36,047 nt of DNA from Phycisphaerae bacterium. Its GTDB lineage: Bacteria > Planctomycetota > Phycisphaerae > Sedimentisphaerales > Anaerobacaceae. The notes beneath the pieces are model-generated. The model worked only from the letters and a program-made list of their open reading frames with translations, did no database searches and was not told the origin of the DNA. This document shows positions 1-23,335 of the stretch, one piece after another (the first letter of the stretch is position 1; each line of letters begins with the position of its first letter). The DNA lies in assembly GCA_003553245.1 (NCBI GenBank), contig PWDX01000167.1:1-36047 (forward strand), given 5' to 3'. The translations under genes and the position numbers were made by a program.

Positions 1-506
1 AGGCTCGCCTTGGCCACCGCAAGCAATTTCTAAAAGATGTCCAATCGCACATAGATGAAATCGCCGCCAAATACATCAACCCCGAAGAAGGCACGCTCGA
101 TTTCGCGATGATGTTCATACCGGCCGAGAATGTCTATTACGAAACCATCGTCAAATACCCCAACCAGCCGCAGGACATAATGCAGTACTGCCTTGACAAA
201 AAAGTCATCCCCGTAAGCCCGAACCTGCTCTACGCCTATCTGATGACTGTCGTGATGGGTCTGCACGGCCTGCAAATCGAAAAACAGGCCGCCGAAATCC
301 GCTCCAACCTCAAAAAACTAAACTCATCCTTCGCCATGTTTATAAGCAACTGGGACATCCTCGGCAAACACATCAAAAACACATACAGCCAATACGAACA
401 AGGCCAGAAAAATCTCGATCGTTTCGCGATGCAGCTTGAACAGACTCAGGGCGATTCGCAAAATTCAGACACTACCAATCTTAAAGAAACAGGAGCAGTC
501 CAATGA
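1..506 (+). CDS. rmuC: RmuC family DNA recombination protein, C-terminal part
   Basis: The reading frame is open from the left edge (frame begins at base 3) and ends at a TGA at 504-506, so only about the last 167 residues are present. They match the end of the RmuC nuclease-like core: an MFIPAE stretch followed by KVIPVSPNLLYAYL and then a helical tail. RmuC proteins limit inversions and rearrangements at repeats and are thought to act on DNA ends; a catalytic activity is not firmly shown. The 3' end overlaps the next gene by 4 bases (ATGA), which suggests translational coupling to the thioredoxin-like gene. The N-terminal coiled coil and any membrane anchor would lie outside the window. Confidence 0.85.
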   Translation, partial: ARLGHRKQFLKDVQSHIDEIAAKYINPEEGTLDFAMMFIPAENVYYETIVKYPNQPQDIMQYCLDKKVIPVSPNLLYAYLMTVVMGLHGLQIEKQAAEIRSNLKKLNSSFAMFISNWDILGKHIKNTYSQYEQGQKNLDRFAMQLEQTQGDSQNSDTTNLKETGAVQ

Positions 507-14830: not shown

Positions 14831-15481
14831 TTACTCGCTGTCGATATCATCTTCGCCTTGTCGCGGAGTTCGCACCGTTACGCCGAGTCGTCCGAGTTGT
14901 TCAGCTACGGTAGGCTGGCTAGGATTAAGCTCAAAGCTGCGCGTAAGATGCTGGCGGGCTTTATCACGATCGTCTCTGCCCAGATAGAAATATCCGAGCT
15001 GCCGGTGAACTACCGCCGAATTCGGCGCCAGACTCTTGGCTTGTTCGTAGCATTTGAGTGCATAGTCGTCGAGTTGCTGACCCTGAAAAGCTACTGCAAG
15101 CCTGAGTGAAGCGGCTGCCGAGCCGGCGGCCTGGTCCAGATAAACTTCCGCATATGTTCTGGCACGGTCTTCGTCGCCTGCCTGAATGAGAGTTTTTACG
15201 ATTCCGGCCTGCGCGCCGCGATGGATAGGATCAAATCGAACGGTTGTAAGAAAATGCTGGCGGGCCTTTTCCCATAGTCCGTCCTGCTGGTAGAGCCTTC
15301 CCAGTTCGTAATGTGCTTCAGAGTCGGAATAACGCCTGGCGACGCGTTGTTCGAGTCGATGCCTGTGAGCCTCGGTGGGAGAACGATCAATTTCGTCCTC
15401 AGCAGTCGGGGCGTTGCAGCCGCCGGTGATGGTTATAATCAATGCGAATATAATGCAAAAGATGGTTGGTTTGATGCTCAT
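14831..15481 (-). CDS. TPR-repeat lipoprotein
   Basis: Lipoprotein signal peptide MSIKPTIFCIIFALIITITGGC with the acylated Cys at 22, then at least four TPR-like units: SEAHYELGRLYQQDGLWEKARQHFLTTVRFDP, HRGAQAGIVKTLIQAGDEDRARTYAEVYLD, the AASLRLAVAFQGQQLDDYALKCYEQAKSLAP unit, and SAVVHRQLGYFYLGRDDRDKARQHL. It is likely a periplasmic scaffold held in the inner or outer membrane. GGAGG lies just before the ATG at 15481, which I prefer over an ATG 12 bases upstream that overlaps the ribosome site. It converges on miaA (16 bases between stops) and diverges from the sigma factor gene. Confidence 0.82.
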   Translation of the reverse strand: MSIKPTIFCIIFALIITITGGCNAPTAEDEIDRSPTEAHRHRLEQRVARRYSDSEAHYELGRLYQQDGLWEKARQHFLTTVRFDPIHRGAQAGIVKTLIQAGDEDRARTYAEVYLDQAAGSAAASLRLAVAFQGQQLDDYALKCYEQAKSLAPNSAVVHRQLGYFYLGRDDRDKARQHLTRSFELNPSQPTVAEQLGRLGVTVRTPRQGEDDIDSE

Positions 15482-15533
15482 TTGCGCCTCCATAGCTAAA
15501 ATTGGCCGCCGACAATGACTGTTCCTGCAGTCT

Positions 15534-15549: not shown

Positions 15550-15667
15550 GATACTTCCATTTTGGCGTTGTATGATATTTTTTGCAAGTAAATTTTGCAG
15601 TTTTTTTGAATTATAGCGTCTTTTAGCCGACTAAGGTGGTATAACATCTGATAAAAGGAGTGTATTT

Positions 15668-17665
15668 GTGCGAACTATTAGTTGCCGGATTGCTGTTGAG
15701 CGTAGCGGGGCGTTGGTTTGGAAAACTGCTTACCGCATACTTGGAAGCGGTGAAGATGCGGCTGATTGTCTGCGGCAGGCGTTTATCAAAGTGCTTCGGG
15801 CGGCCAAGAAACAGCCTGTTCGAAACATTGAAACTGCGCCGGCATTGACGGCGGTAACTTTAGCGCTTGAGAAAATACGAGAGCGTATTCACCACGGGGA
15901 TACAAGCACAGACCCGCTGGACTTCGAGGTTCTCACAAGCGGCGCCAATGGTCCTGATGATATACTTCAAAGAGAAGAGCTTGCCAACGGCCTGCGGCGA
16001 GGTCTTGCCGAGCTTACTGTTCACGAAGCTGAGGTTTTCTGCCTGAGCGTTTTTTCGGGAATTTCGTTGCGCCGAATTGGGCGTCTGCTGGAAATAAAAC
16101 CCGGAACCGCTCGTGTACTTCTGAAAAGGGCGACAGGAAAGCTTGAAACTCTGCTGCCACAATTTAAGGATCCGCAAAAAAACAATCTCCAGAAAGCTAT
16201 CGAAATTATATTATCCGAAACCGCTCACTCGGCGCCGCCGCGGGAATTGCTGAACAATACAGTTGGACTGTTAGAGGAGCAATGTGACGAAGGCGATGGT
16301 TTCAGGGCTGCCCGGCCAAGTGTATGGGAAATTATCAATTCAGCAGGACCAGTAGCAAAAACGGCTGTAATAATTGCTTTTATCGCGGCTTTTGTTATAG
16401 GTTATAGAGGATATCGCCCGCCCGTGGAAGAGTTACCGATAGTAACAGGCGATGTCCAGCAGGAAATTGGTGAAGAAATTGAAGTTGGAGAAGAAATCGA
16501 GGATATAGAAACACAGCCGCAGGAGCTTCCTACACAGAAAATCAGGCGGTTGTTCGATTCCGAGGACTTTGAAGGGTTGCTGGAGCTTGCCGAGGCAGGT
16601 ACGCTGGATGAGCAAAGGGGGCTTGCGACATATCTTGCGAATATCGGCGATGAGCGAGCTTTCATACTGCTTAGCCTGCTGGCAAGAATCCACGAAGACC
16701 AAGCTGAAAACCCGTTCGCGCAAAGGCTGGAGGAATTTGAGACACCGATTGATATTATTGAGCAGATTACTGAAGCGGAACAAGCTGCGGCAGAACCTGA
16801 CGAAGAAGAGCCTACGGCGATTGAACCTGCCGATGCTGAAGAACAGGTCTATCCTCTCAGCGGGCTGGTAACGGATACTTTTGGACAATCGGTCAGCGGG
16901 GTGGAAATATCCATAGCAGGGCCGAACGAAGCGATAACTGTTTTCAGTGATGATAACGGCTTTTACAGTGTGGAAGAAGGGGATTTCGAGCCGGGTATGT
17001 ATCGCATAGACAGGGCGATGTCGCTGGGGTATGTCTATGCAGGAGAATCGCCGGAGCTGGAGCTTGCCCCTGACATTGAGCAGGCATACGATATTGAGGT
17101 TGAGCCGGCGTGTATGATAGATATCGCGATTGTTGACGAGGACGGCGAGGCGGCAGGGCATGTGAGCTATTATGTTTTCAGGAATACGGATAATGATGAG
17201 CCTTTTGAGGCTGTTGCATATATCAGCGAAAGTCAGCTTAGCCAGGGCGATGAATTAATCGCGATAGGAGGGTTAATACCTGAGAGCAGGCCTTACCGAA
17301 TTTATGTTATTCACCGCGATTATGCGCCGAAGTATTTTGATATTACGCTCAATAATCCCGATATTGTGGAGTATCGGGAAATAGTTCTTTCGGAAGGTTA
17401 TGAGCTGGAAGGTTATCTCAGTGACATAAATGACCAGCCGGCTGACGGCGTAAGGATACACGCCATAGCGCAGGATTGGCCGAGGCAGATAGACCTTGAA
17501 AGAGCCGCCGAAACCGACCAGGACGGTTATTTTATGATTTCAAATCTGCAAGAGGGGCTCCACAGCATTGTCGCAGAGATTGTCACTGACGGCCAGGTCG
17601 GGCAGGAAGAAGTAGCCGTTGTGGAAGTTCCGCTCGATGAATTTGCCGATATCACTCTGCCGTAG
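15668..17665 (+). CDS. ECF-type sigma factor fused to membrane helix and carboxypeptidase-regulatory-like domains
   Basis: A 665-residue protein starting at GTG 15668, with AAAAGGAG 8 bases upstream. Residues about 11-48 resemble sigma70 region 2 (LVWKTAYRILGSGEDAADCL). Residues about 106-160 are a region 4 helix-turn-helix (LTVHEAEVFCLSVFSGISLR, then a helix beginning IGRLLEIKPGTARV). One membrane helix follows at about 232-249 (AVIIAFIAAFVIGY), then an acidic linker at 260-290 and a helical part. Outside the membrane are at least two beta-rich modules: GLVTDTFGQSVSGVEISIAG...DDNGFYSVEEG at about 399-440, and GYLSDINDQPADGVRIHA...TDQDGYFMIS near 577-620, both carboxypeptidase-regulatory-like. 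If translated as seen it would be a membrane-tethered transcription factor with its sensor on the far side. No separate anti-sigma gene is adjacent. Confidence 0.8.
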   Translation: MRTISCRIAVERSGALVWKTAYRILGSGEDAADCLRQAFIKVLRAAKKQPVRNIETAPALTAVTLALEKIRERIHHGDTSTDPLDFEVLTSGANGPDDILQREELANGLRRGLAELTVHEAEVFCLSVFSGISLRRIGRLLEIKPGTARVLLKRATGKLETLLPQFKDPQKNNLQKAIEIILSETAHSAPPRELLNNTVGLLEEQCDEGDGFRAARPSVWEIINSAGPVAKTAVIIAFIAAFVIGYRGYRPPVEELPIVTGDVQQEIGEEIEVGEEIEDIETQPQELPTQKIRRLFDSEDFEGLLELAEAGTLDEQRGLATYLANIGDERAFILLSLLARIHEDQAENPFAQRLEEFETPIDIIEQITEAEQAAAEPDEEEPTAIEPADAEEQVYPLSGLVTDTFGQSVSGVEISIAGPNEAITVFSDDNGFYSVEEGDFEPGMYRIDRAMSLGYVYAGESPELELAPDIEQAYDIEVEPACMIDIAIVDEDGEAAGHVSYYVFRNTDNDEPFEAVAYISESQLSQGDELIAIGGLIPESRPYRIYVIHRDYAPKYFDITLNNPDIVEYREIVLSEGYELEGYLSDINDQPADGVRIHAIAQDWPRQIDLERAAETDQDGYFMISNLQEGLHSIVAEIVTDGQVGQEEVAVVEVPLDEFADITLP

Positions 17666-17727: not shown

Positions 17728-20178
<2,451 letters not shown>

Positions 20179-21920: not shown

Positions 21921-22012
21921 TCTAACCTCGGTGCGGAATTGTATTTATCCGCAGTAAATTGCCGAAAAACACTGTTGCCAGAGTATTTAATCCATTTGGA
22001 GAAACAGCAATT

Positions 22013-23335
22013 ATGGCTGGTATGTTTTATTCACTTGAAGAAGTTGCGGCGAAGCTTAATATCTCGGAAAACCAAATCAAAGAATATGTAAACCAGGGTA
22101 AGCTGCGTGAATTTCAGGATGGGCCTAATCAGCTCTTTAAGGTCGATGAGGTCAACGCCCTGGCTGCTGAACTTGACGGCACCGCCGTTGAGGGTCGTGA
22201 GGTTTCCGAGCCCGCACAGGCAGAAGAAAAACAACCCGACTCCGCCGAACCCGAGGAAGACACCGGAAGCGATATAGAGCTTGATATCGGCGATACGGAC
22301 ATTATAGGGGCTCAGCAGGAAGATACAGGCGCTGACAAACAAGAGCCTGATGAGGACACCGGTGAAATAGAGCTTGATCTTGGTGACAGCAGTGAGCAGG
22401 GCGAAGAACCTCAGCCGCAACAGCCGGAACAGAAAAAAGAAGAACCTGCCCAGCCTGCTGAAGCCGATTCCGGTGAAATGGAGCTTGACCTGGATGACAG
22501 CGGCGAGCAGGAAGAAGAGCCTGAACCGGAGCAGCCGGAACAAAAAAAAGAAGAGCCTGCTCAACCTGCTGAAGACGATTCCGGTGAACTAGAGCTCGGG
22601 GAAGTTGACGACGAGCAGGCAGAGCAGAAAAAAGACGAGGATACTCTCGGGGAGCTTTCTCTGGCAGATACTCACGACGGCAGTGATGAAACGGCCGCCG
22701 GCGGCGAAGGTATAAATATCCTTGATGAGAGCGATTCTGAATATAAGCTGGCTGACGACACTCTTGGCGAGACAAAGGCTGGCGAGGAAGAAGCGTCTCT
22801 GGAAGAAATCGAGGGGGATGTTAATCTGGATAGTTTCGGCAGCGGATCGGGCTTGCTGGACCTTTCGTTGCAGGCAGATGACACATCACTGGGAGGAATT
22901 CTCGATGAAATTTATGCTCCTGAGGGTGAAGAGCCGAAAAGTATGGAAAGTGCCGGCGAAGGTGTTGCCGCTGAAGCCGATAGTGTAATGCCCGATGACG
23001 AAAAGGCCGGCGAAGCCGAAACATCCGCCGCGGCAGCTGCGGTCGGATATGTCGAACCGGAGCCTGATACAATCAGCAATGCTCTGGGGATAATGCTGTT
23101 TGTACCGCTTTTGGCTTTGGTTTATATGTCAATAGTAGTAATCGCAGGGTTCGTTCCGGGTGTTTTCGCCGGCTTGACGGACTATGTTTGGTATGTAATG
23201 GGCGCATTGGCGGTGATTGCGTTGGGTATTGCCGGCGGAGGCTATATGATGGAAACATCCGCCTCGTCACCGAAGAAGCCAAAAGCCGAGAAGAAGCCAA
23301 AAGCTGGCAAAAAGGCTAAAAAAGCAAAGAAATAA
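22013..23335 (+). CDS. helix-turn-helix protein with acidic repeats and C-terminal membrane helices
   Basis: From ATG 22013 (GGAGA 10 bases upstream) the protein has 440 residues. Residues 4-54 are an excisionase/MerR-like helix-turn-helix: MFYSLEEVAAKLNISENQ...LREFQDGPNQLFKVDEV. Residues 60-355 are very acidic, with two tandem 37-residue repeats (115-151 and 152-188; core QPEQKKEEPAQPAE) and a partial third. Two membrane helices follow at about 357-385 and 391-413, then a lysine-rich tail (KKPKAEKKPKAGKKAKKAKK). It thus looks like a DNA-binding head on a long acidic tether bound to the membrane. No known named protein is recognised; similar N-termini are common in Planctomycetota. It is divergent from dnaN. 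Confidence 0.78.
   Translation: MAGMFYSLEEVAAKLNISENQIKEYVNQGKLREFQDGPNQLFKVDEVNALAAELDGTAVEGREVSEPAQAEEKQPDSAEPEEDTGSDIELDIGDTDIIGAQQEDTGADKQEPDEDTGEIELDLGDSSEQGEEPQPQQPEQKKEEPAQPAEADSGEMELDLDDSGEQEEEPEPEQPEQKKEEPAQPAEDDSGELELGEVDDEQAEQKKDEDTLGELSLADTHDGSDETAAGGEGINILDESDSEYKLADDTLGETKAGEEEASLEEIEGDVNLDSFGSGSGLLDLSLQADDTSLGGILDEIYAPEGEEPKSMESAGEGVAAEADSVMPDDEKAGEAETSAAAAAVGYVEPEPDTISNALGIMLFVPLLALVYMSIVVIAGFVPGVFAGLTDYVWYVMGALAVIALGIAGGGYMMETSASSPKKPKAEKKPKAGKKAKKAKK
22355..22642 (+). repeat. 111-base in-frame tandem repeat inside the HTH protein gene
   Basis: Copies at 22355-22465 and 22466-22576, then a shortened third to about 22642. Each encodes D[TS]GE(I/M)ELDL..., then an E/P/Q-rich part and QPEQKKEEPAQPAE. 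The copies differ at several third positions, so they are not brand new, but copy-number change is likely. Confidence 0.75.

Follow-up and report, generated by a model that had tools for sequence, protein, structure and literature searches.

A planctomycete ECF sigma factor joined in one polypeptide to its neighboring membrane regulator

In a member of the Phycisphaerae (GenBank assembly GCA_003553245.1), an ECF sigma factor and the membrane regulator encoded next to it in related bacteria are genuinely joined into one gene, and the same joining is found in a second genus at the same locus. The gene lies at positions 15668–17665 (+) of the window, by which we mean the whole stretch of DNA analysed (36,047 nucleotides of contig PWDX01000167.1). 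As the probable mode of action we favor a single polypeptide, made of the sigma factor and of the regulator that relatives encode in the next gene, in which the sigma factor would be tethered to the membrane, masked in cis and set free by proteolysis. Here we describe the protein, its separate counterparts, its promoter and its divergence, and weigh this reading against the alternatives.

Domain architecture of the fused protein

The fused gene encodes 665 amino acids in an uninterrupted frame that runs from a GTG start, a few bases downstream of an AGGAG, to the stop codon ending at 17665. Its first 163 residues (15668–16156, +) form a sigma domain with regions 2 and 4 and without region 3, which is the composition (sigma2 and sigma4, lacking sigma3) that defines the ECF class. 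Residues 10–161 match the NCBIfam model sigma70-ECF (TIGR02937) at 58.4 bits against a cut-off of 42.9, residues 10–48 match Pfam Sigma70_r2 at 26.1 bits (cut-off 24), and residues 109–155 match Sigma70_r4_2 at 25.1 bits, slightly below the Pfam cut-off of 25.7. The AlphaFold2 model of the domain has a mean pLDDT of 85, and its matches in the PDB are ECF sigma factors.

The sigma domain is followed by a cytoplasmic segment, residues 168–227 (16169–16348, +), which corresponds by homology to the N-terminal part of the downstream partner that relatives encode separately and is a putative anti-sigma domain; AlphaFold2 predicts two helices in it (173–183 and 192–207). Neither a zf-HC2 nor a FecR domain was matched in the window protein in the Pfam search, and residues 164–227 contain no HxxxCxxC motif. 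A single transmembrane helix then spans residues 228–248 (16349–16411, +), as indicated both by the AlphaFold2 helix and by hydropathy: the top 19-residue window (226–244) has a mean of 2.13 and the runner-up elsewhere in the protein 1.30. From the cytoplasmic sigma domain we infer that this helix is oriented with its N-terminus inside. Everything beyond it is strongly acidic (99 acidic against 19 basic residues in 250–665), beginning with an acidic linker at residues 250–285 (16415–16522, +; 12 acidic and one basic among 36). Next comes a HEAT-like stretch at about residues 287–374 (16526–16789, +), recognized through phmmer matches and conserved at this place, behind the transmembrane helix, in many related membrane proteins; HEAT_2 was found in the relative L077. 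Two CarboxypepD_reg stretches (40.5 bits, Pfam cut-off 32.3) complete the outer part, the first at residues 397–446 (16856–17005, +; PF13620) and the C-terminal one at about 576–665 (17393–17662, +), where a second PF13620 stretch is accompanied by PF13715 at 612–639. Much of this layout had been recognized in a preliminary description of the sequence, whose sigma regions 2 and 4 in one frame, single membrane helix (put at about 232–249), acidic linker and at least two CarboxypepD_reg modules are all borne out; the conserved 168–227 segment and the HEAT-like stretch had been overlooked.

The separate pair beside gyrB and its fusion

At about 48 related loci the sigma factor is a separate gene of roughly 175 amino acids, and among 89 genomes searched within this family many sigma relatives of 170–200 residues terminate where the sigma domain of the window does. 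Directly 3' of these genes lies a partner gene, either overlapping by a few bases or after a gap of up to about 20 bases. Its product opens with a conserved head, LxxAIxxLKxExxPxGPPxExVDxTLxKLxE, followed by one membrane helix and by outer domains that are exchangeable among relatives (CarboxypepD_reg, FecR, DUF2092 and VIT). A profile of the partner head, built from 48 downstream partner proteins with the window protein left out, matches window residues 168–244 at 23.2 bits, while the best of 2000 shuffles reaches 7.2. The 60-residue segment and the helix of the fused extension are thus, by sequence comparison, homologous to the adjacent separate membrane partner. Among the separate partners, one (L100, 5522–7513) also has a weak AhpC/TSA-like (thioredoxin-fold) match at its end, after CarboxypepD_reg.

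The usual gene order in relatives is a divergent TPR gene, the sigma gene, the partner, a convergent gyrB, dciA and dnaN. The window has the TPR gene (14831–15493, −), which is also kept beside the sigma gene in relatives, then the fused gene, gyrB (17728–20166, −), dciA and dnaN. Since it occupies the same chromosomal slot, the fused gene is the fused orthologue of the pair and not a new insertion. Such a joining would need only a small change, because in several relatives the sigma and partner genes are in the same frame, with one or two stop codons and a few bases between them. The relatives belong mainly to Sedimentisphaerales and other Phycisphaerae, and more distant ones occur in Schlesneria and Pirellulaceae in a scan of named genomes; in the literature searched we found no study of this planctomycete pair beside gyrB. 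Near the dnaN end of the cluster the window also encodes a 458-residue protein (21959–23335, +) with a marginal HTH_17 match.

The preliminary description had raised the possibility that a sequencing error joins two genes, and the genome is indeed a draft of 260 contigs with a run of seven A near the junction. A frame error at this run was considered and rejected, as the other frames give no combination of stop and partner start codon. The junction itself retains no stop codon and no start codon for the partner, so that more than one error would be required, and codon-position GC is coding-like on either side of it. In addition, a genome of a second genus (L054) has an unbroken frame of sigma domain, segment and helix next to the same TPR gene; its HEAT-like and CarboxypepD-like parts were recognized by eye and are uncalled by Pfam. 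A fusion at the same locus in a different genus argues against an assembly error, which is largely refuted and which we now consider very improbable. The question whether the fusion is absent from close relatives has a mixed answer: most of them lack it, but the second genus has it. It is a rare arrangement: among 298 sampled genomes of the class, the profile has no other match that reads through beyond the helix without a stop. Neither the sigma tree (AU test p 0.53 for a single clade of the fused copies) nor, likewise, the GyrB tree separates one fusion event from two.

Several other sigma genes depart from the two-gene form. L144 (149–1777, +; the same gene is in L194) has a sigma relative in frame with a part named DUF2092-like for its likeness to partners with DUF2092 hits, lacking the segment and the membrane helix; it is either a soluble fusion or a remnant. 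Two broken copies are found at the same locus as the pair, one in which an unrelated hydrophobic tail comes after sigma region 2, directly before gyrB (L145, 5001–5558), and one in which region 2 runs into an early stop (L147, 5001–5270). Genome G056 (contig C153, 3224–3873) has a second copy of the sigma gene that contains one internal TAA and is preceded by a canonical promoter of its own. In a different ECF subgroup the sigma factor continues into a membrane segment and CarboxypepD_reg repeats (L080, 1829–5644, −; L084, 2350–5274, +, with five CarboxypepD_reg stretches; L091, 2650–6525, +), a distinct sigma-receptor fusion within this bacterial family. Another long sigma protein of the genome (L180), read from its sequence, is a helix-turn-helix and sigma70 protein and was set aside as not comparable.

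Promoter and divergence of the fused sigma factor

In relatives the pair is preceded by an ECF-type promoter of the form TGTAATAAA-N13/14-CGAC (for example L092–L149). The strict form TGTAATW-N15/16-CGACTA occurs at 29 of the 60 loci, against no occurrence in 100 shuffled sets, and a relaxed form, TGTAA[T/G][A/T] with CGAC 22 or 23 bases downstream, is found with this fixed spacing at 48 unfused loci. Searched genome-wide, the strict and CGAC forms turn up at a rate of about one per genome, chiefly before the sigma-partner pair, and matches to a reversed-pattern control are few. Such a conserved promoter at about one copy per genome makes autoregulation probable and, as far as a strict pattern can tell, points to few targets.

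The canonical form is absent from both fusion genomes. The window has a diverged ECF-type promoter at 15607–15633 (+), about 35 bases before the start codon, which reads TTTTTTTGAATTATA ... CCGACTA (also given as TGAATTATA...CGACTA). It scores 12.0 against 39 for the canonical promoter, a value reached by 1% of shuffles, and it is the sole match to this variant in the genome; its −10-like CGACTA is kept at the expected position. In the second genus the drift of the promoter is greater still, and the best site there does not stand out clearly from shuffles.

In the two fused proteins the sigma domain has diverged as well, with branches of 1.6–2.1 against a median of 0.23–0.26. The window GyrB branch (0.53 against 0.23) is only about twice its median, so the rate effect is stronger in the sigma factor. 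Of 57 conserved positions the window protein keeps 35 and that of the second genus 33, against 38 or more in each of the 55 unfused relatives. Region 2.2 is affected just past the conserved D33 and C34: Q36, which is 95% conserved in unfused relatives, is R in the window and K in the second genus, and E37 is Q in the window. These two positions we take to be the equivalents of Q406 and E407 of sigma70. The preliminary description had mentioned loss of core-polymerase contacts in region 2 across the family as an argument against its reading; Q36 is indeed changed in both fused proteins, whereas D30, D33 and F39 are kept, and to judge from these residues the contact may be altered, though it is not clearly lost. 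Loss at the same conserved sites was rejected as a link between the two fused copies, with 11 positions shared (22 and 24 changed among the 57) against about 9 by chance. The divergence may mean either an altered specificity, with the promoter co-diverging, or a relaxation of constraint.

Proposed mechanism and comparison with known systems

An anti-sigma factor is our best guess for the partner, given that it is the immediate operon partner of an ECF sigma factor and that its short cytoplasmic head is followed by one helix and by exchangeable outer domains, among them FecR (in L098) or, in others, DUF2092; FecR is the periplasmic part of known anti-sigma factors. Outer modules homologous to those of the fused protein follow zinc-finger anti-sigma-like heads elsewhere (L077, 2803–6657; L087, 3025–4083), and a zf-HC2-like head precedes the same outer module in a relative, with weak profile support. 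Another membrane protein with a zinc-finger anti-sigma-like head is encoded at L139 (8797–10461). The preliminary description had observed that no anti-sigma gene is adjacent, which is literally so, but the membrane partner gene that is adjacent in relatives is fused on here, and the missing anti-sigma factor is thus probably inside the fused protein.

In the proposed mechanism, segment 168–227 would mask the sigma domain in cis, in the manner of two-helix anti-sigma domains such as CnrY, which wraps both sigma domains (PMC7406223). The HEAT-like and CarboxypepD_reg modules would sense something beyond the membrane; a site-1 cut, followed by cleavage by the RseP-type site-2 protease of the genome, would free the sigma domain, and the freed sigma factor would transcribe chiefly its own operon. 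With the segment included, the AlphaFold2 model gives a sigma shape closest to SigW of the SigW-RsiW complex. As proof of the segment gripping the sigma domain this was rejected: the control without the segment gives the same compact sigma form, and the structural test is therefore uninformative. Features expected of a substrate of regulated intramembrane proteolysis are present, namely a single N-in membrane helix and, in the genome, an RseP-like protease that carries HExxH and PDZ-like repeats; a Peptidase_S41 (Prc family) was not detected in the 92%-complete genome. There is a direct precedent in IutY of Pseudomonas putida, a sigma and anti-sigma factor in one polypeptide that is cut by Prc and RseP, freeing the sigma factor (PMC5411451), and ECF48, ECF52, ECF53, some ECF36 and ECF243 are listed as fusions for which a proteolytic mode of action is expected or has been shown (PMC8999054; for ECF52 see PMC5826349). 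On the IutY precedent and the RseP-like protease, proteolytic release is the favored route even with no Peptidase_S41 detected.

The protein might instead stay intact as a one-piece membrane sensor, in which an outside ligand shifts the hold of the segment on the sigma domain and the tethered sigma factor recruits polymerase in the way of ToxR or CadC. Within a fusion the partner does not have to release the sigma factor fully; the one strongly conserved target among relatives is the system's own promoter, at about one copy per genome, so that diffusion to many promoters would be unnecessary; and the undetected Prc-family protease fits this reading too. We nevertheless think it unlikely, as the sigma/anti-sigma fusions studied so far act through proteolytic release (PMC5411451, PMC8999054), a promoter-bound holoenzyme requires free sigma2 and sigma4, and an RseP-type protease is present. 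The rapid divergence raises a different doubt, namely that the protein is a decaying or repurposed remnant whose sigma function is lost and which is kept for its outer part or is disappearing. Loss of function is possible, with fewer conserved positions than in any unfused relative and a drifted promoter; the long sigma branches in both fused genomes beside a modest GyrB branch in the window, the change of Q36 in both proteins and of E37 in the window, and the truncated copies in other genomes point the same way. Against it, the 665-codon frame is still open despite the divergence, the TIGR02937 match is well over its cut-off, the −10-like CGACTA is kept in place and the structure model is confident, and on balance a remnant seems improbable to us. 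Beyond the favored tethering, masking and release lies a bolder version, which we hold to be quite doubtful: a self-contained one-protein circuit that senses the outside and reads essentially its own diverged promoter, maybe while tethered, with sigma factor and promoter co-diverging fast after the fusion.

The fusion is new in its lineage, its sensor modules and its head, and the arrangement itself is already known in other bacteria. IutY, a FecI/FecR-type hybrid of ECF243, likewise unites an ECF sigma factor, one helix and an outer regulatory part within one polypeptide, and it too has separate-gene relatives. However, what lies outside the membrane in IutY is the periplasmic domain of a FecR-type anti-sigma factor of cell-surface signalling that responds to the siderophore aerobactin, whereas the window protein has a HEAT-like and CarboxypepD_reg outer part and belongs to Planctomycetota. 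ECF52, ECF53 and ECF48 of Actinobacteria (e.g. SCO4117) share with it the succession of sigma factor, regulatory segment, helix and large extracytoplasmic module in one frame, but they use a zinc-finger anti-sigma domain, and ECF52 has a proline-rich part and a carbohydrate-binding module. By description, the segment resembles the class II domains CnrY and NepR in being short, zinc-free, predicted to be two-helical and next to an ECF sigma factor; unlike them it is fused in cis, and its sigma binding is putative. The nearest counterpart is the pair beside gyrB in Sedimentisphaerales and other Phycisphaerae, with an orthologous sigma factor, a homologous segment and helix and the same neighbors, in two genes there and in one here.

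These results identify a partner for a widespread planctomycete ECF sigma factor, namely the second member of the pair beside gyrB, and they suggest for the partner head an anti-sigma role that can be tested. With the two-gene and the fused form at one locus a natural comparison is available, and the near-unique promoter before the pair suggests an ECF system that mainly targets itself, which can easily be tested. If the one-protein circuit were true, it would be a membrane-bound sigma factor specialized with its own diverged promoter.
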